27,208 bases of DNA, from positions 1 through 27,208 of IMG/VR virus record IMGVR_UViG_3300031643_000009; one strand, written 5' to 3'. Positions 7,405 through 22,979 of the stretch are shown piece by piece. The position numbers were made by a program, and so were the translations under genes. The notes under the pieces are model-generated. The model was not told the DNA's origin, searched no databases, and saw nothing but the letters and a program-made list of their open reading frames with translations. This DNA is from a virus. Numbering within the stretch: the stretch's first letter is position 1; every line of letters starts with the position of its first letter.

Positions 7405-7422
7405 AACAGATAGGGGGATAGC

Positions 7423-8531: not shown

Positions 8532-8591
8532 TACTGTAGATGAAGGGATACTTACGACATGATATTTAGGTTGAGGCGGCGCTTCATTTCG

Positions 8592-8669: not shown

Positions 8670-8687
8670 ATCTCCCCTCCACCCCGA

Positions 8688-8715: not shown

Positions 8716-8733
8716 TTATTGAAGGAGGATAGC

Positions 8734-9057: not shown

Positions 9058-9239
9058 TGCGCCGGAACGCAGCCCCTGCCCATCCGACAGTCATCATCAA
9101 TGTAAAGCCCGGCAAACCCGCATCCCGGCAACTCAAGGCATGGGGTGAATTTCTGGACATGCTGATGGAGCGGGCTGAGGCGCTGGAAATAAACGAGGGG
9201 GAGCCGGCTGGCTGCGGCGGCTCCATGGAAAGGAATTGA
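9057..9239 (+). CDS. Small unknown early protein
   Basis: A 60-residue protein (MRRNAAPAHPTVIINVKPGK to GCGGSMERN) with a basic N-terminus and a helical middle (QLKAWGEFLDMLMERAEALE). GGAGG at 9046-9050 is spaced better for ATG 9057 than for the overlapping ATG 9054. The start overlaps the previous stop by one base, indicating co-translation. No family is recognised. Confidence 0.6.
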   Translation: MRRNAAPAHPTVIINVKPGKPASRQLKAWGEFLDMLMERAEALEINEGEPAGCGGSMERN

Positions 9240-9242
9240 TTA

Positions 9243-9674: not shown

Positions 9675-9676
9675 TA

Positions 9677-10276
9677 GTGGAAAAAATAATTACAAGTCTA
9701 GCTATTCAATTTCTGCTTTTAATCTGGAATGGAATTCATGAAAGTAAAACGATGTGGTCTTGGAATAGGCTTAATTCCTGCATGCATAATGGTCTTCACC
9801 TTGCTATAGAATCAGCATTAACTTTCGGCATTGATGATTTTTCTTATATCGCTAAAGAGTTCCGTTGGGCTTGGTGGGCTAGCGATGGTGAGCAATATTA
9901 TTCACGGGCGGTAGCAGAAAACAATATGTCAGCAACCCACGCCCTAGAAAAATACTTCAATAGAAAGCCCTTTATCGCCAATGAAGTTGACCCGCCTTTT
10001 GTTGCTAGGCAACGACAGCGATGTAGGCTTGCCGTTGGTGCGAGATTCAAATGGAATAATGAATGGGTAAGTGTAACCAGTATTGATGATAAACAAGGTA
10101 TTGTTAGAGCCTGCTCATATAAACCATACGAACGGGATGAGCGAAATTATATCATAAGAGCTCGTAGGATTGAACATATATATAGAATTACTCACAAAGA
10201 CCTAAAGGAGAAAATGCCAGCAACAATAAAGGAGGAAGGTGATAACGATGGAAAAGGCGTTGGAAAAGAAATTTGA
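9677..10276 (+). CDS. Unknown AT-rich early protein
   Basis: A 199-residue protein starting at GTG 9677, two bases after the previous stop, with AGGAGGAGGG just upstream. The N-terminal helix (IITSLAIQFLLLIWNGI) could be a membrane segment but is interrupted by polar residues. The middle holds SYIAKEFRWAWWASDGEQYY, and the C-terminus (ARFKWNNEWVSVTSIDDKQG to YIIRARRIEHIY) resembles a small beta domain. The GC content is well below the flanking DUF6166-like gene. No family is recognised. Confidence 0.6.
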   Translation: MEKIITSLAIQFLLLIWNGIHESKTMWSWNRLNSCMHNGLHLAIESALTFGIDDFSYIAKEFRWAWWASDGEQYYSRAVAENNMSATHALEKYFNRKPFIANEVDPPFVARQRQRCRLAVGARFKWNNEWVSVTSIDDKQGIVRACSYKPYERDERNYIIRARRIEHIYRITHKDLKEKMPATIKEEGDNDGKGVGKEI

Positions 10277-10442
10277 GAAAGTTGAGGAAGAACTTAATTG
10301 GTCAGGGCTGCATCTCGATGATATGGCTGAAGTTACGGAATATACCCTGGAACGATTAAGAGAATATCTAGATGAAATTGGGGCACCAAATGAAGCCGCA
10401 ATAATTCAAGAGGCTTTAGACTGCGTAGAAACTCACATCTAA
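10248..10442 (+). CDS. Small acidic helical protein
   Basis: A 64-residue acidic, almost wholly helical protein (MEKALEKKFEKVEEELNWSG to EALDCVETHI). Its start overlaps the end of the previous gene by 29 bp. GAAGG at 10235-10239, eight bases before ATG 10248, supports this start over GTG 10239. No family is recognised. Acidic helical proteins of this size in phage early regions are often anti-host inhibitors, but nothing here shows it. Confidence 0.55.
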   Translation: MEKALEKKFEKVEEELNWSGLHLDDMAEVTEYTLERLREYLDEIGAPNEAAIIQEALDCVETHI

Positions 10443-10459
10443 TAAGGGTGGAAGAATAA

Positions 10460-10753
10460 ATGCCCGGAATAAAGATAGAGCTCAAACGCATCGGCGATAT
10501 CTCTTTCAAGTTCAAGAAGGGCACCCTGCTGCTCACCATGGAGACCAATCTCCACCCCGGCGACATCGCCCGCCTGATTAACCTGGACCGGCAGGACGTC
10601 CCGCTGTACGGCTTCATCGCCAGCGACCAGGCCGAGATGGACCTGAGGTTCGATGCCGTCAGCGCCGTCACCGGCGAGGTTGTTGAGGACCGCTCGCTGT
10701 TTGCGCCGTCCCTCCAGCCCGCCGGCGTGGGAGAGGATGATATAACAGACTAA
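10460..10753 (+). CDS. Unknown GC-rich early protein
   Basis: A 97-residue protein with alternating beta strands (GIKIELKRIGDISFKFKKGT, LLLTMETNL) and a helix around PGDIARLINLDRQDVP, ending in an acidic tail. Its codon use and GC are like the core phage genes and unlike the two AT-rich genes before it. No family is recognised. Confidence 0.6.
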   Translation: MPGIKIELKRIGDISFKFKKGTLLLTMETNLHPGDIARLINLDRQDVPLYGFIASDQAEMDLRFDAVSAVTGEVVEDRSLFAPSLQPAGVGEDDITD

Positions 10754-10763
10754 AGGAGGCGTG

Positions 10764-10817
10764 ATGCACGAAGAGCAAATCCACGTCAAACTCGAAGACC
10801 TTGAGGTGGTGAGATGA
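10764..10817 (+). CDS. 17-residue micro-ORF coupled to the ASCH gene
   Basis: AAGGAGG at 10752-10758 and ATG 10764 give near-ideal initiation for a 17-codon frame (MHEEQIHVKLEDLEVVR). Its TGA overlaps the ATG of the ASCH gene as ATGA at 10814-10817. The ASCH gene has no comparable site of its own, so the micro-ORF probably delivers ribosomes to it. It may have no peptide function. Confidence 0.45.
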   Translation: MHEEQIHVKLEDLEVVR

Positions 10818-11242
10818 AAGCGCTTAGCATCAAGCAACCCTGGGCGTGGCTCATCTGCGCTGGCTATAAGGATATCGAGAACCGCAGCTGGTGGCTTCAT
10901 ATGCCACCGCTGTTGAATTACCCGGCTAACCCCAGACGGATTTACGTCCATGCTTCTAAGACAATAGATCGGGAAGCATTTAAATGGATAGCTCTTTGGA
11001 TACCTAAAGCTATCATTCGGAAATTTATGTTCAATGGTTTACCAGATGCTGGTATGTTCGTCACTGGTGCCATCATCGGCGAGGTGGACATCACCGGCTG
11101 TGTTGAGAAGTCGGATTCGCCCTGGTTCACTGGCCCCTATGGCTTCACACTCGCCAACCCGGTTCTCTATGAGAACCCCATCCCCTGCAGGGGCAGGCTC
11201 GGCTTCTTCGAGCCGGATATCGAGGTGCCAGAATATGACTGA
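10814..11242 (+). CDS. ASCH-domain protein
   Basis: A 142-residue protein. The N-terminus MKALSIKQPWAWLICAGYKD-IENRSW is the ASCH signature, and the later YVHASK and GAIIGEVDITGCVE strands and GPYGFTL turn complete the PUA-like barrel. ASCH proteins bind RNA or modified nucleosides, and some hydrolyse N4-acetylcytidine; phage versions are common. An inserted stretch (about residues 35-80, with FKWIALWIPKAIIRKFMF) is AT-richer and longer than the usual core. It starts at the ATGA overlap with the micro-ORF and overlaps the next gene by 8 bp. Confidence 0.85.
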   Translation: MKALSIKQPWAWLICAGYKDIENRSWWLHMPPLLNYPANPRRIYVHASKTIDREAFKWIALWIPKAIIRKFMFNGLPDAGMFVTGAIIGEVDITGCVEKSDSPWFTGPYGFTLANPVLYENPIPCRGRLGFFEPDIEVPEYD

Positions 11243-11573
11243 AGCCGAGCTAAAATCAAGTCTGCGCCGCGTCTTGATACTGCACATCGGCAGGGAAAAG
11301 GCTATTGATGCGGGGTCACTGGCCGGGATGTTCGGTTTCCGGGATGACCGCCCTGTACGGAAGGCTATCGAGGAACTGATAAAGGAGCATTTCCCCGTCT
11401 GCTCGGCCACCGAGGAGCCGCCCGGTTATTTTTTCCCCGCCAGCACGGAGGAAGCCAGAAGGTACACCAGGTCATTACAGAAAAGGGCGGTGCGGATATT
11501 CCTGCGCCGCCGGCATATTATCCGGGACACCGCCAGGTATTACGAAAATGCCCGCCAGGAGATGATGGTTTAA
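11235..11573 (+). CDS. Winged-helix DNA-binding-like protein
   Basis: A 112-residue protein. LAGMFGFRDDRPVRKAIEEL followed by a GYFFPASTEEARRY wing has the helix-turn-helix-wing layout of small phage DNA-binding proteins in which an N-terminal wHTH is followed by a basic helix (LQKRAVRIFLRRRHIIRDTA). It could help initiate replication or regulate early genes; no replicative enzyme is otherwise visible in the window. The frame is open far upstream, but the ATG at 11235, which overlaps the ASCH stop, is chosen. Confidence 0.6.
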   Translation: MTEAELKSSLRRVLILHIGREKAIDAGSLAGMFGFRDDRPVRKAIEELIKEHFPVCSATEEPPGYFFPASTEEARRYTRSLQKRAVRIFLRRRHIIRDTARYYENARQEMMV

Positions 11574-11607
11574 TGCCCCGATTTAACGGAGGGAGGTTCA
11601 GCCGAAG

Positions 11608-12357
11608 ATGAACGAACATAAGCATCAGTGGGACAAGCAGCCCCTCACCAGCCTTGTTGACCGCGCCACCTGCTACTGCGGCGCCATCCGGTTCTTCCCC
11701 AGAAGTGGTGCCACAGCCGCCGTTGAGCAGGCCAGAATACAGAATGAAAAACATGAAAAGGAGGGACCCCAATCAAAAGGAGGTATGAAGACTATGGACA
11801 GAAAACCGAAAACCGGAGCTGACAACATCGTGGTGATGAAAAAGGAAGACCACAACGCCATGCACGCCGGCCTGCCCCCCGTGCCGCCCAGGCCCGATAC
11901 CGCCGGCATGGATAATATCCGGGCCCGGATAGCGCTGGGGAAATATTACGAGGAGAATGCCCAGGCCATTCTCGCCGACCATCGTTATCTTGTTGAGAGG
12001 CTGGGTTTACGGAAAGGCAACCCGGCTGCCAGGAAGCGCTGGGGGTTTTCTCCGTGCGGCTGGTCATCGTTCCGCAGGCGGCATGGTTTGCCGATTGCAA
12101 AATACAAGACTAAAAACCCTGAGCCGGCGGCGGAGCCAAAATCAGAGTTTGAGAAGCCTGCTGCGGTGGACAAAGGTAACCCCGCCGGTGCTGATGTTAG
12201 CGTTGAACACGGTGATAAAATGCCGACAAGCATTCTCAAACTCCCCAATTATGTACCAGGGCTCCCGGCCTTCCCCAAGTTCAACCCGTGGTGGAGGAAG
12301 GACGTACAGATTGAATGGTTGAAGACCTACAGGGAGCTGGTAAGGGGTAAGGCATGA
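11608..12357 (+). CDS. Unknown protein, possible in-frame fusion with internal start
   Basis: A 249-residue protein. Residues 1-59 include His-Lys-His, Cys-Tyr-Cys-Gly-Ala and a charged helix; residues about 60-249 hold a Pro-rich linker and ARKRWGFSPCGWSSFRRRHG, which looks like a small HTH, before a Pro-rich tail. GGAGG at 11779-11783 sits inside the frame ten bases before an in-frame ATG at 11794 (MDRKPKTGAD). So a second product of about 187 residues is likely, or two genes have fused by stop loss. The first start is ATG 11608. The stop overlaps the next start as ATGA. No family is recognised. Confidence 0.6.
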   Translation: MNEHKHQWDKQPLTSLVDRATCYCGAIRFFPRSGATAAVEQARIQNEKHEKEGPQSKGGMKTMDRKPKTGADNIVVMKKEDHNAMHAGLPPVPPRPDTAGMDNIRARIALGKYYEENAQAILADHRYLVERLGLRKGNPAARKRWGFSPCGWSSFRRRHGLPIAKYKTKNPEPAAEPKSEFEKPAAVDKGNPAGADVSVEHGDKMPTSILKLPNYVPGLPAFPKFNPWWRKDVQIEWLKTYRELVRGKA

Positions 12358-12521
12358 TACCGCGTTCCTGTCCGAGGTGCGGCGGCGATTTGTTCCTGGA
12401 GCGGGACGAGTACCATGATTATTACCTTCACTGCCTCCAGTGCGGGGACACGAGGGATATCAAGCCGCTGGAGCCTCTGAAGATGGTCGGCAACAAGATG
12501 AGGGCGGGAGGTAAAAGATGA
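12354..12521 (+). CDS. Small zinc-ribbon protein
   Basis: A 55-residue protein: Cys6-Pro-Arg-Cys9-Gly-Gly, then a DEYHDYY linker, then Cys27-Leu-Gln-Cys30-Gly-Asp, a textbook four-Cys zinc ribbon. Both ends overlap neighbours as ATGA (12354-12357 and 12518-12521), so it is translationally coupled in a three-gene chain. Such knuckles bind nucleic acid or proteins; no specific role can be assigned. Confidence 0.7.
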   Translation: MIPRSCPRCGGDLFLERDEYHDYYLHCLQCGDTRDIKPLEPLKMVGNKMRAGGKR

Positions 12522-12598
12522 GCGGCTGGTTCGAGATTTATCTGGCGGTCATATTGTTCGGGTTCCTGCTCTGTTACTGGGATAGGACGAAGAGGTGA
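12518..12598 (+). CDS. 26-residue single-TM miniprotein, copy 2
   Basis: ATG 12518 follows GGGAGG (12506-12511) by six bases and overlaps the zinc-ribbon stop. The peptide begins MSGWFEIYLAVILFGF and ends CYWDRTKR. It matches the lysis-region miniprotein at 3986 in length (26 residues), in the WFEIYLA block at residues 4-10 and in CY-x-Asp at about 19-22. It is a single hydrophobic helix with a basic end. Being early rather than late, the pair may act at different times on the same membrane target. Confidence 0.65.
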   Translation: MSGWFEIYLAVILFGFLLCYWDRTKR

Positions 12599-12608
12599 AG
12601 GTGAGGAG

Positions 12609-12833
12609 ATGATTTTGCCAGAGAGAAGAGAGATATCCTGGAAGGTATCCAGAGGTATTAAAAGTAAACCCTGGGGGGCGCGTAGATTGGAAAGTCTGGG
12701 CTTCAGTCACCGGGAGGCTAACCAATATCTGGAAAACAGGAATGATTACCTCCGCCTGTGTATCGCTCAGGATGTATCCAAGAGGAATCACCGCTCCCAC
12801 GGGCTGGAATGCGCCATAGGGCTGAAGGAGTAA
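12609..12833 (+). CDS. Small basic protein
   Basis: A 74-residue basic protein (MILPERREISWKVSRGIKSK to ECAIGLKE) with a helical centre (GARRLESLGFSHREANQYLE). It is not recognised. The purine-rich GGTGAGGAG leader runs into the ATG at 12609. The stop is one base before the DUF5131 gene, so both are probably on one message. It marks the last gene before the AT-rich block. Confidence 0.5.
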   Translation: MILPERREISWKVSRGIKSKPWGARRLESLGFSHREANQYLENRNDYLRLCIAQDVSKRNHRSHGLECAIGLKE

Positions 12834-12834
12834 G

Positions 12835-13554
12835 ATGAGCTTAAATAAACAGACAGGTAACATGTATCCTTGGGTGACACACACATGGAACGTGATTAAG
12901 GGTAAGTGTCCCCATGATTGCATTTACTGCTACATGAAACAGTACCCGCAGCCTGAGTTGCACTTTGACGAAAAGGAATTAAAAACAGACCTCGGCTCCG
13001 GCAACACTATCTTTGTTGGAAGCTCATGTGATATGTGGGCAGAGTACATCCCTGACAAATGGATTGAGCAAGTTATGTTTCATTGTATGGAATATGGAAA
13101 TAGATATTTGTTTCAATCTAAGAACCCAATACGTTTTATAGAAATATTAGACTTCTTTCCAGACGAAGCCATTATTGGCACGACTATAGAGACAAATCGC
13201 AAATATGATTTTATCAGCTTAGCTCCACGAACAGAATTGCGTAAGGAACACATACAGGAGTCAATCCTGCCAAAAATGGTCAGCATAGAGCCTATCATGG
13301 ATTTTGACCTTGATGAGTTAGTGCGCTGGATAGAGGAGATTAAGCCAGAGTTCGTGAGCATCGGTGCTGATAGCAAAGGACACAACCTACCAGAGCCGTC
13401 TCCGGAGAAGACACGCCAGCTCATTCAGGAGTTGGCAAAGATAACCCAGGTAAAGATTAAAGATAACCTGAAAAGGATATTAAGGCAGGAGCTCCCACTG
13501 GTCTACCACTGTCTGCCAGTCAATTTCTTCAAGGCTGGCATGCCTGCAAAATAG
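12835..13554 (+). CDS. DUF5131 (phage Gp37/Gp68-like) radical-SAM-like protein
   Basis: A 239-residue protein. WVTHTWNVIKGKCPHDCIYC carries Cys25-x3-Cys29-x2-Cys32, the iron-sulfur motif of radical SAM enzymes, in the Thr-Trp-Asn context of the phage Gp37/Gp68 family (DUF5131). Later blocks (FVGSSCDMWAEYIP, YLFQSKNP, SIEPIMDFDL, FVSIGADSKGH) follow the family order. The reaction is unknown; radical SAM proteins cleave S-adenosylmethionine to start modification chemistry. AAGGAG at 12825-12830 precedes ATG 12835. It opens an AT-rich block with methyltransferase-like and phosphoribosyltransferase-like genes. Confidence 0.85.
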   Translation: MSLNKQTGNMYPWVTHTWNVIKGKCPHDCIYCYMKQYPQPELHFDEKELKTDLGSGNTIFVGSSCDMWAEYIPDKWIEQVMFHCMEYGNRYLFQSKNPIRFIEILDFFPDEAIIGTTIETNRKYDFISLAPRTELRKEHIQESILPKMVSIEPIMDFDLDELVRWIEEIKPEFVSIGADSKGHNLPEPSPEKTRQLIQELAKITQVKIKDNLKRILRQELPLVYHCLPVNFFKAGMPAK

Positions 13555-13569
13555 CATAGGGAGGGCTAA

Positions 13570-14187
13570 TTGAGAATATTAATAGCCTGTGAATATAGCG
13601 GGGTGGCAAGAGAGGCTTTCGCAGAGCGTGGGCATGATGTCTGGTCCTGTGACTTTTTAGAAACAGAAATACCAGGGAATCATATTCAAGATGATGTGTT
13701 AAAGCATCTTGGTGATGGTTGGGATATGATGATAGCTCATCCGCCTTGTACCTATCTCTCAAATGCGGGCTTACATTACCTTTACTCAGGGAGATACACG
13801 GGACTTAACAGGTTGGAAAGAATGGAAAGGGTTTCCCATGCTTATCACTTTGTACTAGAACTCTGGGCAGCCCCGATTGAGAAGATATGTATAGAGAATC
13901 CGCCTGGTTATCTTAACTCTCATTGGTATGCACCGTCACAAACTATACAGCCATATTATTTTGGCGAACTGGAAATGAAAACAACATGCTTATGGTTGAG
14001 AAACCTTCCAATCTTGATGTTTTCAGAGATTTTACCTAAGCCGAAGCCGAGCCGCGTATATGTCCGGAAGACTGGCGTGAAGGCAGGGCAAGTTTATAGA
14101 GGCTACTACCACGAAGGTAAAAATGGGCATGATAGAAGCCGGACTTTTAATGGAATCGCGAAGGCAATGGCAAAACAATGGGGTTAG
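13570..14187 (+). CDS. C5-cytosine methyltransferase-like protein
   Basis: A 205-residue protein. The order of motifs fits a compact C5-type DNA methyltransferase: motif I-like ILIACEYSGVAREAF, an acidic CDF after strand 2, IQDDV, the catalytic-loop motif IAHPPC60-TYLSNAG, and IENPPGYL in the motif VI position. A target-recognition domain and the usual later motifs are not evident, and the length is well short of normal (about 300 or more). It is either a minimal phage MTase or a relative with another base or nucleotide substrate. TTG 13570 follows GGGAGGG by a few bases. AT-rich. Confidence 0.7.
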   Translation: MRILIACEYSGVAREAFAERGHDVWSCDFLETEIPGNHIQDDVLKHLGDGWDMMIAHPPCTYLSNAGLHYLYSGRYTGLNRLERMERVSHAYHFVLELWAAPIEKICIENPPGYLNSHWYAPSQTIQPYYFGELEMKTTCLWLRNLPILMFSEILPKPKPSRVYVRKTGVKAGQVYRGYYHEGKNGHDRSRTFNGIAKAMAKQWG

Positions 14188-14347
14188 CAAATAACCTTGG
14201 CAGGCGTTTGTGGCAACCCGCATGAGGAGTGGAAAGCAGAGATTGATAGTGTTTATGACAAACTCAATAAGGCAAAGTAGCTTCAGGAAGTGAAAGATGA
14301 CACAAGTGAACAGGCATGAATAAGCTAGGTAAAAATGGGAGGGCTAG
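14188..14347 (+). other. Gap with at most a 27-codon frame
   Basis: This 160-bp gap separates the methyltransferase-like gene from the next TTG-start gene. One frame, from TTG 14197 to 14280, would give a 27-residue acidic helical peptide (AGVCGNPHEEWKAEIDSVYD, then KLNKAK), but it has no ribosome-binding site. It may be a remnant. The remaining bases hold the GGGAGGG site used by the gene at 14348. Confidence 0.3.
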
Positions 14348-14515
14348 TTGGGGATAAAAGAGCCTGACAATCCGTTGAGACCTTGGGAATACGACTTTGA
14401 CTTAAAAGATAAGTCTGTCTTGATTTCTTGGCGATATTTGGAGTTATGGCAGTATTTAAGAAGGAGTTCAAGAAGTTGGAAAGTATTTATCAGTAAAAGG
14501 GGATGGAAAAATTAA
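14348..14515 (+). CDS. Small TTG-start protein rich in Trp and Arg
   Basis: A 55-residue frame starting MGIKEPDNPLRPWEYDFDLK and ending in a basic aromatic helix (SWRYLELWQYLRRSSRSWKV). The start is supported by GGGAGGGCTAGTTG, nearly the same as the GGGAGGGCTAATTG initiation site of the methyltransferase-like gene at 13570. No family is recognised. Confidence 0.5.
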   Translation: MGIKEPDNPLRPWEYDFDLKDKSVLISWRYLELWQYLRRSSRSWKVFISKRGWKN

Positions 14516-14533
14516 TTAACATCGGAGTGTTGA

Positions 14534-14716
14534 ATGATAACGTTGAAGGATTTTAGGGCTGGAGTAAATGCCTCAATTATTGAACTGTCAGTATTGGCAA
14601 AAGAGTTGGGCATAGACGTAGAAATTATCAGAGCCAAGCATTACGATGCACTCTTTGAGGAATTAAGTGAGTCAATAAAAAAGGCAGATTCACAACAAAA
14701 TAACATCAGGGGGTAG
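14534..14716 (+). CDS. Small helical protein
   Basis: A 60-residue acidic helical protein (MITLKDFRAGVNASIIELSV to ADSQQNNIRG). GGAG at 14524-14527 is six bases before the ATG. It lies three bases before the phosphoribosyltransferase-like gene and is probably co-translated with it. No family is recognised. Confidence 0.55.
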   Translation: MITLKDFRAGVNASIIELSVLAKELGIDVEIIRAKHYDALFEELSESIKKADSQQNNIRG

Positions 14717-14719
14717 ATA

Positions 14720-15097
14720 ATGGGTTTATTTGAACTGGGCAATTTCACATTACATTCAGGAGATAAGAGCCATTTTTTGATAAACTGTGACGCTCTTACC
14801 GATGAGGATTGGCGAACATTAGCCTTTTCGATAAAAAAGCGTGTTAAGTTTGGTGCTGTCATTGGAATACCAGAGGGCGGGATGAAACTTGCTCATGCTC
14901 TATCTGGATATGTAACCGAAGGGCCTACGCTCATTGTGGATGACGTTCTAACCACAGGGGCTTCGATGGAACATGCCAGGAAAAAGGTTGATGGTGAGGT
15001 TTTAGGCATTGTTGCCTTTGCTCGTAGTAAATGCCCTTGGTGGGTTCTCCCGATAAGCGATTTATCCTTTTGGCTATCGTTGGGAGAATCAAAATAA
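14720..15097 (+). CDS. Phosphoribosyltransferase-like protein
   Basis: A 125-residue protein. PTLIVDDVLTTGASMEHAR (around residues 69-87) is the PRPP-binding loop of type I phosphoribosyltransferases: hydrophobic strand, two acidic residues, Thr-Thr-Gly. An upstream VIGIPEGGMKLAHAL loop matches the first substrate loop of orotate PRTase-like folds. The protein is short (typical PRTases are about 170-200 residues) and has an odd Trp-rich C-terminus, so it may be a minimal salvage enzyme or a PRPP-binding regulator. AGGGGG precedes ATG 14720. AT-rich, like its neighbours upstream. Confidence 0.75.
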   Translation: MGLFELGNFTLHSGDKSHFLINCDALTDEDWRTLAFSIKKRVKFGAVIGIPEGGMKLAHALSGYVTEGPTLIVDDVLTTGASMEHARKKVDGEVLGIVAFARSKCPWWVLPISDLSFWLSLGESK

Positions 15098-15135
15098 CTT
15101 CAGCATATTACCTATTATATATAGGAGGGAGCTTA

Positions 15136-15864
15136 ATGGGAAACCGGGGCAGCCAGAGCGTCAGCGAAACCAACTATAAATGGCTGGTAGCCACCTATGG
15201 TGAGAATTGCCTCATCTGCAAAAGCCCGCCGCCCCCCGGGCAGAAGCTCCAGATTGACCATATCTCCTATGACCCGGACGTAATATGGGACCCGGACAAT
15301 ATCAGCCTCGTCTGCGGCCAGTGCAATATCTATCTCCGCAGCATCGATGCGGAGGACAAAAACCGCCCGCGGATGCACCGGAAAATCATCGAACACTATC
15401 GTGCCCTGAGAATGAGCGAGCGCGCGCGCGAGCGCGAGAAACAAGGCAAATCAAGTCGCCAAGGGGTACGTATACCCGGAGTGGACAACGAAATAGCCAG
15501 GGAATTCGGGAGGGTAGCCAGGAGAAACAGGCTGGATGTACCGGTACCCGATTACTCGGTCAAAGCGGTACTCGATTATATGAACGGTTCCGCGGAGATG
15601 AAGGCCAACAGCAAATACCAGCCTTCCTATGCCGTCTGGGTATGGAAAGAGCTCCTTCAGCACGGACCGCTGCCCGAGGACGACCTTCTCGACTCCGGTG
15701 CCAATGATATCGGCGCCAACCAGACCACGCTCAAACGCTATCTCAAAGCCTGGTACTCGCGAAAAGGCGCGCTCGAACGGGCAGATGACTGCGGAATATG
15801 GAAGGTCTACTTCAAAGACCCATCCGGGGCCCGGAATGTAACCGGGCAAAAGGAGGGAAAATGA
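15136..15864 (+). CDS. HNH-like zinc-binding N-domain protein
   Basis: A 242-residue protein. Residues about 20-75 read NCLICKSPP, LQIDHISYDP, DNISLVCGQCNIYL: paired CxxC knuckles around Asp-His, the pattern of an HNH nuclease or related zinc finger. A very Arg-rich helix (ERAREREKQGKSSRQG) follows, then a C-terminal helical domain (about 120-230) that ends DDCGIWKVYF. It probably binds or cuts DNA. AGGAGGGAG just before ATG 15136 sets the start, although the frame is open upstream. The GC content returns to the high phage-core level here. ATGA links it to the next gene. Confidence 0.65.
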   Translation: MGNRGSQSVSETNYKWLVATYGENCLICKSPPPPGQKLQIDHISYDPDVIWDPDNISLVCGQCNIYLRSIDAEDKNRPRMHRKIIEHYRALRMSERAREREKQGKSSRQGVRIPGVDNEIAREFGRVARRNRLDVPVPDYSVKAVLDYMNGSAEMKANSKYQPSYAVWVWKELLQHGPLPEDDLLDSGANDIGANQTTLKRYLKAWYSRKGALERADDCGIWKVYFKDPSGARNVTGQKEGK

Positions 15865-16094
15865 CGATGCTGAAGATTGACGACTTCATGCCGGCTGTCA
15901 GGAGCGCCGAGCCGTCCGCCAGCGATGCGGCGGTCAGGCAGCTCGCGGAGGCCGGCGCCCGCAGCGCCCTGGGCAAAACCCTCGAGCTGCTCGCCTCGTT
16001 CAAAGTAAAAGTCACCGGCGACGGCAGCCGCGCCGTCTACTGCATCCCCGTCGACCTCATCAAGCGGCTCGGCGAAATTGCGAAAGGAGATTGA
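15861..16094 (+). CDS. Small unknown protein
   Basis: A 77-residue protein (MTMLKIDDFMPAVRSAEPSA to LIKRLGEIAKGD). It is helical with a central strand pair (FKVKVTGDGSRAVYCIPVDL). AAAGGAGGG precedes ATG 15861, which overlaps the previous stop as ATGA. A high-GC core-type gene with no recognised family. Confidence 0.6.
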   Translation: MTMLKIDDFMPAVRSAEPSASDAAVRQLAEAGARSALGKTLELLASFKVKVTGDGSRAVYCIPVDLIKRLGEIAKGD

Positions 16095-16098
16095 TATT

Positions 16099-16341
16099 TT
16101 GGATGTCCCCGACAGGTACTCTCAATGCACCCGCAAGCTATGCAATCTCTGGCAGGATGCCGAAGAGCGCCGGCAGAAATACGCCTACTGCCGGGCTTTG
16201 GGGGTAAGCAGCTACATGGCTCAGCGCCTGAGAGACTGGCAGTGGCAGACCATAGACAAATACTTTGAATACGCGGAGGCTTACGACAGGTTTATGAAAG
16301 AGCGAAAGGAAGAAGGTAAATGTCTAACAGAACCGGTGTGA
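16099..16341 (+). CDS. Small unknown protein, TTG start
   Basis: An 80-residue protein (MDVPDRYSQCTRKLCNLWQD to EGKCLTEPV), rich in Arg, Tyr and Trp and helical. AAAGGAG at 16083-16089 is nine bases before TTG 16099; a TTG at 16078 would overlap the previous gene and lacks a site. The RALGVSSYMAQRLRDW segment could be a small HTH. No family is recognised. Confidence 0.5.
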   Translation: MDVPDRYSQCTRKLCNLWQDAEERRQKYAYCRALGVSSYMAQRLRDWQWQTIDKYFEYAEAYDRFMKERKEEGKCLTEPV

Positions 16342-16535
16342 ACCTGACCTGTTACCAGCTCTCCCCGCTCCAGGCGGCCCTCATCGAGTGGGGCAAGGCT
16401 CACCCCTATGGCATCATCCGGGAGCTTCACTTCCAGGACGGCGTGCCCGTCAAAGCCGAGGTCTACCTTGAAGATGGCACCGGCACCGAGACCGTCCTCT
16501 TCGACAAAATCGCCCGAAAGGCGGGATTACTATGA
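16320..16535 (+). CDS. Duplicated small protein, copy 1
   Basis: A 71-residue protein: MSNRTGVNLTCYQLSPLQAA, then a helix and three strands, with a YGIIRELHFQDG core and a DKIARKAGLL end. It is nearly identical to the product at 17001-17192 but has an eight-residue N-terminal extension. It looks like a small alpha-beta fold and is not recognised. The start overlaps the previous gene by 22 bp, and the stop overlaps the next start as ATGA. Confidence 0.7.
   Translation: MSNRTGVNLTCYQLSPLQAALIEWGKAHPYGIIRELHFQDGVPVKAEVYLEDGTGTETVLFDKIARKAGLL
16345..16526 (+). repeat. 182-bp direct repeat, copy A
   Basis: The stretch from TGACCTGTTACC to AAAGGCGGGA recurs at 17002-17183 with the same length and roughly ten mismatches, mostly at third codon positions. 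It covers nearly the whole small gene at 16320. It brackets 475 bp that hold an unknown gene and a nucleoside-deoxyribosyltransferase-like gene. Confidence 0.95.
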
Positions 16536-16672
16536 AAATCATGGAGCAAATCGTAGATTTCATCGTCGATTTCATTGATGGAACTGCAGATGAAAATGCA
16601 AAAGCGCAGGAGGACTGGGATAAAGCAAAACGGTATCGTTCGGTTTTGGTTGGTAAGGGGGAAATTAGATGA
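16532..16672 (+). CDS. Small acidic protein inside the repeat bracket
   Basis: A 46-residue acidic helical protein (MKIMEQIVDFIVDFIDGTAD to SVLVGKGEIR). Both ends overlap neighbours as ATGA (16532-16535 and 16669-16672), so translation is coupled through the whole bracketed segment. AT-richer than the flanking repeat copies. No family is recognised. Confidence 0.6.
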   Translation: MKIMEQIVDFIVDFIDGTADENAKAQEDWDKAKRYRSVLVGKGEIR

Positions 16673-17004
16673 ATAGAGATAACGGATTCCCACAGGTTGT
16701 TTGTCTTTGTGGTTCGACACGCTTTATCGCTACCTTCAACGAATGGAGGAAGCGATTGACCTATGAAGGTAAAATTGTCTTATCAATAGAAATTGTCACC
16801 AGTCAGTCAATGGATACAGACCCGCAGTACGTAGCCCCTGATTTGAAGGCTATGCTTGATGAATTACACTTGCGTAAAATTGACCTTGCCGATGAGGTTA
16901 TGGTTCTTAATGTTGGCGGATATATTGGTGAGTCAACAATGCGTGAGATTCTATATGCTAAAAATATCGGAAAACGGATTAAGTACCTTGAGGGTGAAAG
17001 ATGA
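16669..17004 (+). CDS. Nucleoside 2-deoxyribosyltransferase-like protein
   Basis: A 111-residue protein. VVCLCGSTRF at the N-terminus, LHLRKIDLADEVMVLNVGGY and IGESTMREILYAKNIGKRIK form the pattern of nucleoside 2-deoxyribosyltransferase-like (DUF4406-related) Rossmann proteins: Gly-Ser loop, Asp strand, and Gly-Glu-Ser/Thr motif with the catalytic-type Glu. Members exchange bases on deoxynucleosides or cleave deoxynucleotides. Here it may serve phage nucleotide salvage with the PRTase-like gene. It is AT-rich, lies between the two 182-bp repeat copies and ends in an ATGA overlap. Confidence 0.75.
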   Translation: MNRDNGFPQVVCLCGSTRFIATFNEWRKRLTYEGKIVLSIEIVTSQSMDTDPQYVAPDLKAMLDELHLRKIDLADEVMVLNVGGYIGESTMREILYAKNIGKRIKYLEGER

Positions 17005-17192
17005 CCTGTTACCAGCTCACCCCGCTCCAGGCGGCCCTCATCGAGTGGGGGAAGGGCCACCCTTACGGCATCATCCGGGAGCTCCACTTCCAGGACGGCG
17101 TGCCCGTCAAAGCCGAGGTCTATCTTGAAGACGGCACCGGCACCCAGACCGTCCTCTTCGACAAAATCGCCCGAAAGGCGGGACTGATTTAA
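17001..17192 (+). CDS. Duplicated small protein, copy 2
   Basis: A 63-residue protein (MTCYQLTPLQAALIEWGKGH to KIARKAGLI) almost identical to the product at 16320-16535, differing at only a few residues in the shared part. It starts at the ATGA overlap with the deoxyribosyltransferase-like gene. It is the last gene before the terminator at 17229. Function unknown; keeping both copies open suggests both are used or the duplication is recent. Confidence 0.7.
   Translation: MTCYQLTPLQAALIEWGKGHPYGIIRELHFQDGVPVKAEVYLEDGTGTQTVLFDKIARKAGLI
17002..17183 (+). repeat. 182-bp direct repeat, copy B
   Basis: Second copy of the repeat at 16345-16526. Recombination between the copies would delete exactly one small gene plus the 475-bp segment between them, which holds two AT-richer genes. 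Confidence 0.95.
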
Positions 17193-17228
17193 CAACTGAA
17201 TAACCAACGCTGACCAGGGGAAACCGGA

Positions 17229-17266
17229 GGCGGATTTCAGAGCTGAGGCTCGGAGTCTGCCTTTTT
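17229..17266 (+). terminator. Terminator at the end of the early operon
   Basis: GGCGGA (17229-17234) pairs with TCTGCC (17256-17261), with one G-T pair, around an inner GAGC/GCTC stem. TTTTT follows. It separates the long early operon from the last two genes before the late region, so those would be expressed by read-through or antitermination. Confidence 0.65.
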
Positions 17267-17278
17267 ATTTGGAGAGGA

Positions 17279-17515
17279 ATGAGCAAGCCGTTTTTAGATT
17301 GTTTACCGGTAGATGCCGAGAGGTGGGTAAAGGCATTTCAGGCATTGAGTGACTGTTACGAGGCTGACTGCGGTCAGTGTCTGAAACTCCCCAATGATAC
17401 TGCACGTGCTGTGACCATCAACGCCACCGGCTATGAAGAAGAGCACGAGATGGAGATGGAAAGGGAGGTAAGCCGGCCCCCCGAATCCGAGGAGCACATG
17501 AGGAGGGAAACGTGA
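17279..17515 (+). CDS. Small Cys-containing acidic protein
   Basis: A 78-residue protein with FLDCLPVDAERWVKAFQALS and Cys-x(4)-Cys-x2-Cys spacing (CYEADCGQC), then an acidic Glu-rich tail. The start lies at the end of GGAGAGG. The three Cys could bind a metal. It overlaps the candidate late regulator by a GTGA junction, so the two are coupled. No family is recognised. Confidence 0.55.
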   Translation: MSKPFLDCLPVDAERWVKAFQALSDCYEADCGQCLKLPNDTARAVTINATGYEEEHEMEMEREVSRPPESEEHMRRET

Positions 17516-18084
17516 CCCTCCGCTACTACGGCGGCAAACCCTCGGAGCTCATCTGGGTAGCCCCCGGCGCCCTCCGCTATGACCTGGAGGATACCGAATT
17601 TGTGCTTCCCTGGCTCCCCGAGCTCCGTGAAGGCGCCTACCCTTCCGAACCTGCTGGAGGCTATACCGAAAGCAAGACCCCCGGCGGCAGCACCCACGCC
17701 TACTACGAGACCGCCTGCCAGGTCGCCGCCGAGCTCGATGACCGCCTCGCCCGGACCGGCCTCGACCGCTACATCGTCGAAGACTTTTACTGCCTCAGGC
17801 TCTCCGACGCCGATATTGCCCGCAAGCTCTCCCTGCCCGACCGGGAAGAAGTCCGCCGCCGCCGCCTCAACGCCCTCACCTACATCGCCAGCGGCCGGTG
17901 CCGCCGCTGGGTGAACTGTATCGACTGCTCCGAATATGAGAAGTGCCGGCAAAAAGAGAACCCGCCGCGGAAGTTCAGCAGGCAACCCGTCGGGATACCT
18001 TATCGGCAGTGGGTCAGGAGCCGCAGCAGTGAAATCGCCAGGAAAAACCAAAAGCACCGCCTGAATGCCCCTGAGAAGCCCTGA
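17512..18084 (+). CDS. Candidate late-gene regulator (Q/ArpU/RinA-like)
   Basis: A 190-residue basic protein. Residues about 84-120 (LDRYIVEDFYCLRLSDADIA, then RKLSLPDREEVRRRR) look like the sigma-region-4-type HTH found in ArpU, RinA and similar phage late regulators. Cys130, Cys136-x2-Cys139 and Cys145 could form a zinc site, as in Q-type antiterminators. It is the last gene before a consensus promoter 30 bp past its stop, which faces a terminator and then the terminase operon; that is the position of lambda Q. GTG 17512 overlaps the previous stop, and AGGAGGG at 17501-17507 precedes it. The regulator role is inferred; no family match was tested. Confidence 0.6.
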   Translation: MTLRYYGGKPSELIWVAPGALRYDLEDTEFVLPWLPELREGAYPSEPAGGYTESKTPGGSTHAYYETACQVAAELDDRLARTGLDRYIVEDFYCLRLSDADIARKLSLPDREEVRRRRLNALTYIASGRCRRWVNCIDCSEYEKCRQKENPPRKFSRQPVGIPYRQWVRSRSSEIARKNQKHRLNAPEKP

Positions 18085-18114
18085 ACTCAAAAATATGCGT
18101 TTGCATAGAAAAAC

Positions 18115-18143
18115 TTGACAAATAGCCCGTAGACCGTTATAAT
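18115..18143 (+). promoter_or_regulatory. Perfect sigma70 promoter, candidate late promoter (PR'-like)
   Basis: TTGACA (18115-18120), 17-bp spacer, TATAAT (18138-18143): full consensus. A TATGC-GTTT-GCATA dyad (18094-18107) lies just upstream of the -35. The predicted start is near 18150, about 16 bp before a terminator stem. It is the only strong promoter seen ahead of the HNH-terminase-capsid genes. Confidence 0.9.
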
Positions 18144-18165
18144 AGGGGTGTAGTGGTAAAAGTGT

Positions 18166-18193
18166 CCCGCCGGCAGGAACGGCGGGTTTTTTT
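18166..18193 (+). terminator. Promoter-proximal intrinsic terminator (tR'-like)
   Basis: CCCGCCG (18166-18172) and CGGCGGG (18180-18186) form a perfect 7-bp stem around GCAGGAA, followed by seven T. It should stop most transcripts from the promoter after about 40 nt, unless the polymerase has been modified. Confidence 0.9.
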
Positions 18194-18465
18194 ATTGATG
18201 GGTGCCGAAACGGGTGTGAGGAATTAAAACTCACCACAGAGGTCTATCGGTTAAATGCTCCCCGCCTGGTTGAGCAACCCGCCTGCCATGATGAATAGCT
18301 TGCTGGTGTTCTGTATATCGGTGTTGGTGGTATGATTACTGCTGTAATTATGATAGACAGTACAAAACCGAGCCAGCAAGAGCCAGCCACCCGTTAAAGG
18401 GCACCGACGCTGTTGTGGCGACATAAAAGGGCAGAAGTGGCTACTGGCTGGCATGATAATCAGAG
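18194..18465 (+). ncRNA. Structured non-coding late leader
   Basis: About 270 nt with no convincing gene lie between two strong terminators. Nested pairings are visible: CTTGCTGG (18299-18306) with CCAGCAAG (18373-18380); inside it CTGTATATC (18311-18319) with GATAGACAG (18352-18360), one mismatch; inside that ATTAC (18335-18339) with GTAAT (18344-18348) around TGCT. CCCGCCTG occurs twice nearby. A long multi-part stem of this kind suggests a folded RNA, such as an antitermination (put-like) element or a small RNA made by read-through. No known RNA family is recognised. Confidence 0.45.
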
Positions 18466-18490
18466 CCCCGGTAAGTGCCGGGGTTTTTTT
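18466..18490 (+). terminator. Second leader terminator
   Basis: CCCCGG (18466-18471), loop TAAGTG, CCGGGG (18478-18483), then seven T. It lies 24 bp before the ATG of the first late gene, so late transcription must pass two terminators in its leader. Confidence 0.9.
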
Positions 18491-18513
18491 ATTGGAACTT
18501 CAGGAGAATACAG

Positions 18514-18870
18514 ATGCCGCAGAAACCGATGCGCCCCTGCCGCTTCCCCGGATGCCCCCACCTCACCGACGACAAAAGCGGCTACTGTCCTGAGCACCTC
18601 AAACAGACCCGCCGCCGGCAGGATAAAGAGCGCGGCACCAGCACGCAGCGGGGCTATAACTACCGGTGGCAGAGGTACCGCAGGGCTTATCTCGCCGCGC
18701 ACCCGCTCTGTGTCTTGTGTCTCAAGAAGAAGCCGGAGGTTGTTCGGGAAGCCACCGTAATACATCACGTTGACAGAAACCCGAAAAATAATGAAAAATC
18801 TAATTTGATAGCGCTTTGTGATGAATGTCATCGCAATGAGCACCGACAAGAAATATTCAGGAGGCAATAA
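18514..18870 (+). CDS. HNH endonuclease next to terminase
   Basis: A 118-residue protein. An N-terminal knuckle (RPCRFPGCP, GYCPEHL) precedes a standard HNH: RGYNYRWQRYRRAYL, LCVLCLKK, the TVIHHVD core, KSNLIALCDECHRNEHR. HNH proteins of this kind sit just upstream of terminase in many HK97-type phages and aid DNA cleavage during packaging. CAGGAG at 18501-18506, seven bases before ATG 18514, fixes the start. The C-terminal half is AT-richer than the N-terminal half. Confidence 0.9.
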   Translation: MPQKPMRPCRFPGCPHLTDDKSGYCPEHLKQTRRRQDKERGTSTQRGYNYRWQRYRRAYLAAHPLCVLCLKKKPEVVREATVIHHVDRNPKNNEKSNLIALCDECHRNEHRQEIFRRQ

Positions 18871-19331: not shown

Positions 19332-19799
19332 ATGCCAGGTCCAGCTCCCAAAAATCCGAAGCTGAGGCAACGGAGAAATAAAGATGTCACGGCGCGTGCT
19401 TTGAAGGAAAAACAGTCTATAAAAAGCATCCCGGAACTGCCAAAGCGCCGCCGGAAATGGCGCGAGGAAACCATCACTTGGTGGCAGGATATATGGAGGT
19501 CTCCCATGGCGCCGGAATTTATCCAGTCCGACATTCACCAGCTGTATATACTGGCGGATTTAATAGACCAGTACTGGCGGGACTCGGCGACGAAAAAGGG
19601 ACCGTCGGCGGCACTGGCGACGGAGATACGTTTGCAGCGGCAGTGTTTCGGCCTGACGCCGATAGACCGCCGGAGGTTGCAGTGGGAAATCGAGAAGGCG
19701 GAGACTGCCAAAACCAAAGGCCAGAAACGGCGGAACCAGGGCCGAGAAGTCAAGAAATACACGGTTGACCCCAGAACCGCCCTGGAGTCTGTGAATTGA
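19332..19799 (+). CDS. terS: Terminase small subunit (P27-like)
   Basis: A 155-residue protein. The N-terminus MPGPAPKNPKLRQRRNKDVT is the hallmark of P27-type (Terminase_4) small subunits, followed by ELPKRRRKWREETITWWQDI and the LYILADLIDQYW helix. It recognises the phage packaging site and loads the large subunit. GGAG lies about nine bases before ATG 19332. The basic C-terminus (TKGQKRRNQGREVKKY) fits DNA binding. Its stop overlaps the large subunit start. Confidence 0.92.
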   Translation: MPGPAPKNPKLRQRRNKDVTARALKEKQSIKSIPELPKRRRKWREETITWWQDIWRSPMAPEFIQSDIHQLYILADLIDQYWRDSATKKGPSAALATEIRLQRQCFGLTPIDRRRLQWEIEKAETAKTKGQKRRNQGREVKKYTVDPRTALESVN

Positions 19800-21424
19800 A
19801 CATGACGGTATTAACAGTGCCGGATGATAAGGGAAAGTGGTATCCCTCGCTGGGGAGCCGGGTCTGCGACTTCATCGAGGAGAACCTGGTGTTCGGGCCC
19901 GGGGACCTGCGCGGAGAAAAAGCCAGGCTCGATGCCGATAAGAGAGCTCTCATCTGGCGGATGTATGAGGTATATCCCCAGAGGCACCGGATGGCGGGGC
20001 GGCGGCGGTTCAAAAGAGTGGGGATAAGCCTGGCGAAGGGGATGGCCAAGACGGAACTGGCGGCCTGGATAGCGATTTGCGAGCTGCACCCCGAAGCCCT
20101 GGTGAGATGCACGGGTTTCGATAAGAAGGGCAATCCCATCGGGGGGCCGGTCAACGACCCTTATATCCCGGTGGTGGCATATACGGAAGAGCAGTCGGAC
20201 GAGCTCCTTTACGGGACTATCAAGGTCATTCTCGAAGAATGCGACCTGGGCAAAGACTTCGACATCGGTCTGGAGCGGATCATGAGGAAGCGGGGAGACG
20301 GGAAGGTGGTATCGCTTTCCTCGTCTCCTAACGCCCGCGACGGCGCCCGGACGACCTTCTCCGCCATGGACGAGACGCACTGGTGGACATTACCGCGTTT
20401 ATTAAGAGCCCACCAGACGATGGTGGCCAACCTGGCCAAGAGAAAAAAGGCCGACCCATGGAACCTTGAGATAACGACGGCGCCGGAGCCGGGGGCGGGG
20501 AGCGTCGCGGAAAGCGCCATGGAATACGCCCGGGAAGTGAAAGAGGGACGTATAAAGGATACCCGGTTCTTTTATTATCACCGTCAGGCATCGGATGAGC
20601 ATCCGCTGAATGCCGTGAAAGACATCAGGGCGGCGGTGATAGAGGCCTCCGGAATGGCGGCATCATGGCGGGATATCGACGCGATTGTCGCTCTGTCTCA
20701 GGACCCTACGACCGACATGACTTTTTTCGACCGGGTGTATTGCAACCGGCTGGTGAAGGCTTCACAGAAAGCCTTTGATATCGAAGAGTGGAAGCCGCTG
20801 GCCAAGAAAAACTACCGGGTAAAAGACAGGGCACTGATTACGCTGGGGTTTGACGGCGCCATGTTCCACGATTCGGTGGGTCTGGTGGGGACGGAAATCG
20901 AGACGGGATACCAGTTCGTCCTGGGACTCTGGGAATGCCCTTACGGGAAGAAGGACTGGCAGGCGCCGGTAGAGGAAATTGAAGAGGCGGTGGTAGCCGC
21001 TTTCGAGAATTACGATGTCTGGCGGCTCTACGCGGACCCTCAATACTGGCTTTCCTATACCGCGCAGTGGGCGGGTCTATACGGCAAGGAGAGGGTCGTC
21101 GAATGGTACACGAACCGGTACAACCAGATGTGCTACGCGATAGAGGCCTTCGCCACGGCGATAAAAAGCCAGGAATTGAGTCATGAAAACCACAAGGGGC
21201 TGGAGAGGCATATCGGGAATGCTTTTAAGCAGGAGCTTAATAAGCGGGACGAGCAGGGGAAGCGCCTGTGGGTGATACATAAGGAGCGGGGAGACAGTGC
21301 CAATAAGATAGACCTGGCCATGGCGGCGATATTGAGCTGGAAGGCGAGGCTGGACGCGGTGGCGCTGAATGTGAATAAGCGCAGCGTATATGACGAACGG
21401 GGACCATTAAGCTATAAAATATAA
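19796..21424 (+). CDS. terL: Terminase large subunit
   Basis: A 542-residue ATPase-nuclease that drives DNA into the head and cuts it. A variant Walker A is at about 77-88 (ISLAKGMAKTEL, with Lys instead of the classical GKS/T order, as in related terminases), Walker B with catalytic Glu at FSAMDETHWW (about 188-197), a coupling region VAYTEEQSDE, and RNase-H-like nuclease acids at LGFDG (Asp353), LYADPQYW (Asp414) and near ANKIDLAMAA (about 515). The length is typical. The TTG at 19796 overlaps the small-subunit stop with GGAG eight bases upstream; the ATG at 19802 is an alternative. Confidence 0.95.
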   Translation: MNMTVLTVPDDKGKWYPSLGSRVCDFIEENLVFGPGDLRGEKARLDADKRALIWRMYEVYPQRHRMAGRRRFKRVGISLAKGMAKTELAAWIAICELHPEALVRCTGFDKKGNPIGGPVNDPYIPVVAYTEEQSDELLYGTIKVILEECDLGKDFDIGLERIMRKRGDGKVVSLSSSPNARDGARTTFSAMDETHWWTLPRLLRAHQTMVANLAKRKKADPWNLEITTAPEPGAGSVAESAMEYAREVKEGRIKDTRFFYYHRQASDEHPLNAVKDIRAAVIEASGMAASWRDIDAIVALSQDPTTDMTFFDRVYCNRLVKASQKAFDIEEWKPLAKKNYRVKDRALITLGFDGAMFHDSVGLVGTEIETGYQFVLGLWECPYGKKDWQAPVEEIEEAVVAAFENYDVWRLYADPQYWLSYTAQWAGLYGKERVVEWYTNRYNQMCYAIEAFATAIKSQELSHENHKGLERHIGNAFKQELNKRDEQGKRLWVIHKERGDSANKIDLAMAAILSWKARLDAVALNVNKRSVYDERGPLSYKI

Positions 21425-21445: not shown

Positions 21446-22741
21446 ATGGCGAATCCCATAACGAAATTTTTAAATAATTTCAGGAAGAGCCTGGCGATAA
21501 CATTTTATAATGGCGCCAGATTAATGGGCGGAAGCTACCGCGGTGATTTTAAAACATTCTTTACCGAATTAAGTTACAGTGACAGCGATGCGGGGATACC
21601 GGTGACCAGAGATAAGGCGCTTAATTACACGGCATTCTGGTCGTGCGTGACATTGCTGGCGGGGACGCTGGCATCGCTTTCCTGCTTTTTATACCTTCGG
21701 AGGGGGCAGCGGGGAAGAGAGAAGGCGGTGGAGCACTCGCTATATCACAGATTACATAGCGAGCCGAACCCGGAGATGGACAGCTTTTCCTATTTTGAGA
21801 CTTTGATGTACCACCTGATAGCATCCAACGGCAATGCCTATTCATTTATAGACTGGGACGAGGACCGAACGACAATCAAGGCATTATGGCCGATGAATCC
21901 GGATAAAGTAACCAAAGCCCGGAGTGAGAACCGCGAGATTGTGTATCAATACCAGGCAGAAAACGGCCAGATTACGTTGCCTGCATACAGGGTCTGGCAT
22001 ATACCCGGGTTTGGTTATGATGGGATGATGGGCTATACACCGCTGACCTATGCCAGGAATCAGATAGGACTGGGAATAGCCGCCGAGAAAATGGGCTCTA
22101 AGCTATTCGCCAATGGGCTGACCTTCGGGGGCTTCCTGGAACACCCCAATCAAATGTCAGATATAGCTCTTCAGCATTGGGAAAAGCAATTAAAAGAAAA
22201 ACATGAAGGCGTCGATAAGGCGCACCGATTACTCATCCTCGAAGAGGGGATGAAGTACAGCAAGAATCATATCTCTCCCCAAGACGCGCAGATGCTGGAA
22301 GCGAGGAAATTCCAGCGGAACGAGATGGCGTCCTTCTTTCATATTCCGCCGCACATGATAGGCGACCTGGAGAGGGCAACGTTCTCAAACATCGAGGAGC
22401 AATCGCTGGAGTTCGTCGTCTATACGATGCGGCCCTGGCTGGTGCGCTGGGAGAGGTCGATGAACCGGCAGCTGCTCTTGCCGGATGAGAAGCAGAATTA
22501 TTATGTCGAATTCCTCGTAGACAGCCTGCTGCGGGGGAATATCGAGAGTCGGTACCGGGCGTACGCGATAGGGCGGAACTGGGGATGGCTGACGCCTAAC
22601 AGGATATGCGAGTTTGAGAATCTTGAGCCGATACCTCCGGAGGATGGTGGGGATACTTTTCTTTCACCGCAGAATATGATGCCCGCGGATGAGTTCAACA
22701 ACTCAATGCTGAAGCCCCCCGCCTCCATAGATAAACAATAA
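21446..22741 (+). CDS. Portal protein (HK97 family)
   Basis: A 431-residue protein that forms the dodecameric ring for DNA entry. It shows the HK97-portal pattern: ALNYTAFWSCVTLLAGTLAS, SLYHRLHSEPNPEMDSFSYF, LIASNGNAYSFIDWDE, WPMNPDKV, VWHIPGFGYDGMMGYTPLTY, ARKFQRNEMASFFHIPPHMI and an ATFSNIEEQSLEFV segment. The length is normal. The start is ATG 21446 after GGGAGA. It lies 21 bp from the terminase stop. Confidence 0.95.
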   Translation: MANPITKFLNNFRKSLAITFYNGARLMGGSYRGDFKTFFTELSYSDSDAGIPVTRDKALNYTAFWSCVTLLAGTLASLSCFLYLRRGQRGREKAVEHSLYHRLHSEPNPEMDSFSYFETLMYHLIASNGNAYSFIDWDEDRTTIKALWPMNPDKVTKARSENREIVYQYQAENGQITLPAYRVWHIPGFGYDGMMGYTPLTYARNQIGLGIAAEKMGSKLFANGLTFGGFLEHPNQMSDIALQHWEKQLKEKHEGVDKAHRLLILEEGMKYSKNHISPQDAQMLEARKFQRNEMASFFHIPPHMIGDLERATFSNIEEQSLEFVVYTMRPWLVRWERSMNRQLLLPDEKQNYYVEFLVDSLLRGNIESRYRAYAIGRNWGWLTPNRICEFENLEPIPPEDGGDTFLSPQNMMPADEFNNSMLKPPASIDKQ

Positions 22742-22957: not shown

Positions 22958-22979
22958 GCCCTCTTCGGAGGGCTTTTTT
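22958..22979 (+). terminator. UUCG-loop terminator inside the head operon
   Basis: GCCCTC (22958-22963), TTCG, GAGGGC (22968-22973), then six T. A textbook intrinsic terminator between portal and protease, which would cut off all later virion genes unless read through. Confidence 0.9.

Follow-up and report, generated by a model that had tools for sequence, protein, structure and literature searches.

The region between the early and late genes of this phage is best read as a Q-type late switch, in which initiation would be constitutive, termination would be the default outcome, and release would be brought about by a Q-type protein that modifies RNA polymerase; we assign this reading a probability of roughly 0.78. 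The analogy with Q, PR' and tR' had been drawn in an earlier note on the same DNA, and it is supported because the layout is kept in five lineages, the order of elements is that of phage 21, the predicted model of one homologue aligns with Q21, and a further terminator interrupts the late operon.

The window, by which we mean the whole stretch of viral DNA analysed (27,208 bases), carries from position 7087 onwards a series of plausible plus-strand genes, namely, early genes, the candidate regulator, an HNH endonuclease, the small and large terminase subunits (terS and terL), portal, protease and capsid (Table 1). The regulator is the last gene of the early operon, with HNH, terS and terL coming next, and this is the place where a late regulator is expected. 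The combination of serine recombinase, repressor-like and Cro-like genes indicates that the phage is probably temperate. Also in the window, a gene segment of ~180 bp is present in two nearly identical copies (16345-16526 and 16998-17191; ORFs 16320-16535 and 17001-17192), and a tandem repeat of CTCCACTCCCCTTTTTTTCTGG-type units, with a period of 84 (3.2 copies) or 28, occupies 4463-4734, downstream of a small holin-like gene.

Table 1. Features of the window that bear on late-gene control, with plus (+) and minus (-) strands indicated.
Feature	Position	Strand	Remarks
Large serine recombinase	4859-6376	-	
Repressor-like protein	6624-6986	-	
Early promoter	7051-7078	+	perfect consensus
Cro-like protein	from 7087	+	
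Leftward promoter	8715-8688	-	perfect TTGACA-16-TATAAT
Candidate Q-like antiterminator gene	17512-18084	+	GTG start; 190 aa; stop codon 18082-18084
Predicted layout of its protein			N-terminal helix; flexible Gly/Pro-rich loop; sigma region 4-like HTH (residues ~61-126); C130-x5-C136-x2-C139-x5-C145
Conserved upstream element	18089-18107	+	A/T block AAAAATAT 18089-18096; GCGTTTGC 18097-18104
Upstream dyad	18094-18107	+	TATGCGTTTGCATA; contains GCGTTTGC
Late promoter (pR' analogue)	18115-18143	+	TTGACA 18115-18120; 17-bp spacer; TATAAT 18138-18143
Imperfect 7-bp direct repeat	18123-18136	+	TAGCCCG/TAGACCG; fills the -35/-10 spacer; shuffle p = 0.003
Conserved initial transcribed region	18151-18166	+	-10-like TAGTGG near +2; block AAAAGTGTC 18158-18166
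Immediate intrinsic terminator (tR' analogue)	18166-18193	+	7 G-C pairs plus T7; stem CCCGCCGGCAGGAACGGCGGG 18166-18186
Structured RNA element	18200-18280	+	matches L015 4118-4198
Second intrinsic terminator	18466-18490	+	CCCCGGTAAGTGCCGGGG 18466-18483, then seven T; just before HNH gene
HNH endonuclease gene	18514-18870	+	first late-operon gene; ATG 18514
Small terminase subunit	19332-19799	+	
Large terminase subunit	19796-21424	+	
Portal	21446-22741	+	
Mid-operon intrinsic terminator	22958-22979	+	GCCCTCTTCGGAGGGC-TTTTTTATTG; between portal and prohead protease
Prohead protease	ORF listed from 22981	+	

The late promoter matches the consensus at 12 of 12 positions and begins exactly 30 bp after the regulator stop codon, as the earlier note had described to the base. 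Perfect consensus promoters number three in the whole window, versus 0.01 expected from dinucleotide shuffles; one of the others, at 7051, is the early promoter between the minus-strand repressor-like gene and the plus-strand Cro-like gene, and the late promoter is as good in sequence. From 18190 to the end of the window there is no further perfect consensus promoter. The third, which points leftward between early genes, has a counterpart in L020 (3072, minus strand) with one mismatch and a similar transcribed start (cggggtggaggggag / cggggtgggaggggag, respectively), and possibly gives rise to a conserved antisense RNA.

Immediately downstream, the stem of the first terminator begins ~16 nt past the predicted transcription start (about 18150) and is followed by seven T, again in agreement with the earlier note, which had also placed a leader and a second terminator ahead of the HNH-terminase operon, where both were recovered. 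Defining a strong terminator as a stem directly followed by at least six T, two are found in 7087-18515, both of them at the late-promoter site, whereas 0.03 are expected from shuffles. A terminator-like hairpin with a shorter T run, GGCGGATTTCAGAGCTGAGGCTCGGAGTCTGCC-TTTTT at 17229-17261, lies just upstream of the small ORF at 17279 and the regulator; expression of the regulator may thus depend on read-through within the early operon as well.

Searching for relatives with the regulator and with the terminase, we recovered five more regulators, with identities to the window protein of 90% overall in L002 (which has the same leader), 58% in L003 (recurring as L010 on a different contig), 50% in L011, 57% in L014 and 56% in L015. 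As L002 is so close, it was counted together with the window, giving five lineages (window, L003, L011, L014 and L015). In every one of these (5/5) the regulator is followed by TTGACA, a -10 hexamer 17 or 18 bases further on, and then a G+C-rich hairpin with a T run. TTGACA is invariant, and the -10 hexamers are TATAAT, TAAAAT, TAAAAT, TAAACT and, in L015, a poor TAAATA. The distance from start to hairpin is as short in L015 as in the window, and nearly so in L011; in L003 and L014, the terminator stands about 350-390 nt downstream, with an HNH gene between promoter and terminator. Just after the terminator, L003, L011 and L015 encode a tRNA-Met (CAT), and in L014 inspection by eye shows the 5' portion of a tRNA of this type, interrupted by a second HNH gene. 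HNH, terS and terL come next in L003 and L011; the late region of L014 is rearranged around a transposase-like gene, and in the L015 fragment the HNH gene plus one further gene are visible.

The HNH genes between promoter and terminator (L003 3479-3804; L014 4100-4453) are free-standing, and it is the second one of L014 (4537-4797) that seems to break the tRNA-Met gene; these inserted genes behave as homing endonucleases might. In L002, the first regulator residues differ from those of the window and there is extra DNA upstream (2780-3010), the remainder being 93% identical, a pattern that reads as a recombination joint close to where the regulator gene begins. No relative came to light in two protein scans covering 84,980 bacterial and archaeal genomes, and phage and plasmid records contained none of the regulator. 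A cysteine-motif scan of viral contigs yielded no more than the relatives already known and some chance matches, L042 among them, and L007 and L012, which are more distant by terminase, showed no homologous module in the sequence stretch examined.

The best-conserved motif of the promoter region lies upstream of the -35 hexamer, not in the spacer. GCRTTTGC begins exactly 18 bases before TTGACA in four of the five lineages (window, L003, L014 and L015), an arrangement equalled in none of 4,000 shuffles, although the five loci are related and their common ancestry inflates the apparent conservation. The window and L003 agree here in an identical stretch of 16 non-coding bases (AATATGCGTTTGCATA); in L014 and L015, the motif falls within the last regulator codons and may be kept there for the protein. 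L011 has instead a different dyad, ATACAC-N7-GTGTAT, the centre of which is equally far from the -35 hexamer (14 to 14.5 bases; p = 0.011). A sequence similar to the window's dyad, GCATATGC, occurs at 7083, near the early promoter, and a role as a repressor operator was considered; however, L010 has a single copy, at the late promoter, and no early copy was seen at the early promoter of L020, leaving this a minor possibility. The direct repeat that fills the spacer of the window is a possible binding element, positioned like the QBE of Q21; it is not common to the relatives, since the spacers of the four other lineages hold nothing comparable.

The initial transcribed region is likewise conserved. 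An AAAAnTGTC-like block is present at about +9 to +17 in all five lineages (0/4,000 shuffles, common ancestry again contributing), and it is around this position that polymerases pause in lambdoid phages. The best match to TATAAT near +1, summed over the five loci, beats the shuffles (P = 0.003); the single elements are weak (4/6), including that of the window.

The regulator was described in the earlier note as carrying a zinc site plus an HTH, and both parts are borne out to the extent that the four cysteines C-terminal to the HTH are invariant in the alignment of six homologues and the HTH is predicted with a mean pLDDT of ~80 to 96 per ten-residue block. The cysteines suggest a putative zinc site, in a part where the model is uncertain. 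Over the whole window protein, the mean pLDDT of the predicted model is 66.7; it comprises a helix at residues 25-39 and four helices within 61-126, mostly of high confidence, and the loop is uncertain yet rich in invariant residues (E40, G41, Y43, P44, E46, P47, G49, G50 and Y51).

At the level of sequence, the window protein has no significant match in Pfam, NCBIfam or PHROGs (best PHROG E = 0.12), and it meets no family in these collections above that family's cut-off; this agrees with the earlier impression that it is not a classical lambda Q. PF03589 Antiterm (the lambda Q type) gave no profile match above cut-off, and nothing was found on comparison with the K-12 PF03589 protein YdfT. 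For PF06530 Phage_antitermQ, there was no match to the window protein, and the best homologue, L014, stayed below the curated cut-off (12.1 versus 26 bits; E = 0.2, over the HTH). L014 also matches PHROG 79, 'anti-termination protein Q-like', weakly over the HTH (E = 0.0027). When the regulator profile was compared using hhalign with eight proteins of the Q21/Phage_antitermQ type, the HTH region alone aligned (probability 6%; P = 0.0063).

The earlier note had proposed a structure-based search against Q, and the outcome was divided. The HTH part of the window protein model groups with sigma region 4, and there was no Q21 entry among the best 50 matches of its fold search. The model of L014 (pLDDT 58.5), on the other hand, aligns (VIA-align) with five Q21 entries (6p18, 6jny, 6p1a, 6p1b and 6p1c), all among its best 50 matches, over 94-98 residues beginning with the N-terminal helix, whereas most of the sigma region 4 alignments extend over about 60-79 residues; the Z scores of 5.7-6.3 (about 6) are within the range that the fold-comparison tool calls common and not above its stated background. 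In Q21 itself, helices H3-H6 have a fold like sigma region 4, H1 packs on them and H2 makes the ring (PMC6606751), and the predicted order of elements in the regulator (N-terminal helix, loop, sigma region 4-like HTH) is identical. The predicted fold of the regulator therefore appears to resemble that of Q21, which, given these Z scores, is support rather than proof; the models themselves are of moderate (66.7) to low (58.5) confidence.

The main rival explanation takes the 17512 product for an ordinary late activator, similar to RinA and ArpU, that would bind the conserved site upstream of the -35 hexamer and raise initiation, with the terminator serving mainly to end the early operon. The fixed distance of GCRTTTGC from the promoter in four of the five lineages would suit such a protein; phage activators also have sigma region 4-like HTHs, and L014 gives weak matches to PHROG 248 'transcriptional activator' (E = 0.23) and PHROG 3512 'sigma factor' (E = 0.13). 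Moreover, RinA of phage 80alpha is, like the regulator, a small protein encoded directly upstream of the packaging genes. Nevertheless, the comparison with RinA and ArpU was negative: RinA of phage 80alpha yielded nothing (hhalign P = 0.1), and the regulator matches no RinA or ArpU family (the late activators of Gram-positive phages) in NCBIfam or Pfam. A promoter with a full consensus match is hardly in need of activation, and an activator alone leaves unexplained both the terminator directly after the promoter and the terminators between portal and protease. We consider this explanation unlikely.

The latter terminators were absent from the earlier finding. Between 18500 and 27208, no strong terminator other than that at 22958 is present (shuffle mean 0.00), and a hairpin plus T run also follows the portal gene in L010 (8818), L011 (8217), L004 (4470) and L006 (4006); portals and proteases were assigned by Pfam, except for the downstream gene of L004. 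The position is kept while the hairpin sequences differ, those of L004 and L006 being alike; the same filter found no such terminator in L005 or L009. As no plus-strand promoter-like site separates this terminator from the protease and capsid genes, polymerase has to get past it, whether through antitermination or leakage, before the capsid genes can be transcribed. This favours a processive mechanism.

The Q-type switch could then operate as follows. The consensus promoter would fire without an activator, and, with transcripts ending at the first terminator, a lysogen would make only an RNA of ~40 nt. Upon expression of the early operon, its last gene would yield the regulator, which, we infer, would bind promoter DNA through its sigma region 4-like HTH, join RNA polymerase at a promoter-proximal pause near the start, and travel with it. 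Polymerase so modified would ignore the terminators at 18166, 18466 and 22958, and the terminase, capsid and tail genes would be expressed. Counting against the Q reading are the lack of a Q family match, the moderate to low model confidence, the motif upstream of the -35 hexamer, the weak pause element, the poor -10 hexamer of L015, and the position of the L003 and L014 terminators beyond an HNH gene.

A different possibility, which we regard as improbable, is that the late genes are driven from elsewhere, this promoter serving instead to make a small RNA or a short constitutive transcript. The first terminator would indeed give the ~40-nt RNA and the second one of ~340 nt, and the whole leader folds, if only slightly, better than shuffles (z = -1.5). 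However, the next perfect consensus promoter is lacking all the way to the end of the window, and the leader past the first terminator is conserved outside the window only in L002 and, partly, in L015.

Least probable is the alternative raised in the earlier note, that the leader RNA allows read-through; above all its structured element might be a cis-acting antiterminator in the manner of the put sites of phage HK022. The element is a three-way structure in which 21 of 21 pairs are kept between the window and L015, four of them with compensatory double changes, but its place beyond the first terminator prevents it from acting there, and most relatives do without the leader. The element is known in the window, L002 and L015; L003, L011 and L014 are without it and retain promoter and terminator, and it is not a general antitermination signal. 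Slid controls kept 26-45% of cells and no compensatory pair, and the shuffle control was modest (35/500), with two distinct sequences alone (window/L002 and L015) available for comparison. The window contains no tRNA, and neither it nor the leader gave an Rfam family above threshold; the best sub-threshold match, Leu_leader (20.9 bits versus 50), is probably a chance match to a terminator. Two tiny overlapping reading frames with a common ATGA, MMNSLLVFCISVLVV and MITAVIMIDSTKPSQQEPATR, were read by eye at 18289-18400 in the leader and were not seen outside the window and L002.

Returning to the Q reading, Q antitermination is proven in phage 21, the annotated record of which gives Q, pR' with the QBE, the start, a sigma-dependent pause element from +2 to +8, and a terminator from about +3, followed by tRNA-Asn, tRNA-Thr and the lysis genes. 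The same succession is seen here, with regulator, promoter, immediate terminator, tRNA (in three relatives of the window) and late genes, and the spacer of the window, unlike those of its relatives, has a direct repeat at the QBE position. The differences are that the regulator has no significant sequence similarity to Q of phage 21 and an added four-cysteine site after the HTH, that the late operon starts with HNH-terS-terL and not with lysis genes, and that the window has GCRTTTGC upstream of the -35 hexamer and a weak pause element. With lambda Q (PF03589), the regulator shares an HTH plus putative zinc site and, by functional analogy, a strong late promoter with a terminator downstream; lambda Q carries an inserted zinc finger (PMC9371919), whereas the cysteines of the regulator follow the HTH, and the PF03589 profile does not match. 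Antiterminators without sequence similarity to Q have been described in AlpA of Pseudomonas, which works on an intrinsic terminator located downstream of its promoter, and GafZ of Caulobacter, which has a sigma-like HTH; the described sites of Q, AlpA and GafZ lie between -35 and -10 (PMC7969949, PMC9371919, PMC11150451). Going by these descriptions of AlpA and GafZ, the conserved element of the present phages differs in lying upstream of the -35 hexamer.

Both the mechanism and Q-unrelated antiterminators such as AlpA and GafZ are therefore known already; what is new is the upstream element and the regulator, which appears to be a protein family new by sequence, with an added cysteine site, in uncultivated phages. 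Much more tentatively, and with some doubt on our part, it may represent a distant or separately evolved Q-type branch that is anchored upstream of the -35 hexamer (GCRTTTGC, centre about -50) and has gained a zinc site. Such a branch would combine the binding position of an activator with the action of an antiterminator.

Few systems, most of them in lambdoid phages, have provided experimental proof of Q-type antitermination. If the Q reading is correct, a protein unrelated in sequence serves the same anatomy, including the tRNA in some relatives, which would suggest that the switch is more widespread than sequence searches reveal; the loading of a Q-like protein could also be studied in one more natural case. 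Other such phages may be found by a simple genomic sign, namely, a terminator separating portal from protease, the place of which is kept while the hairpin changes.
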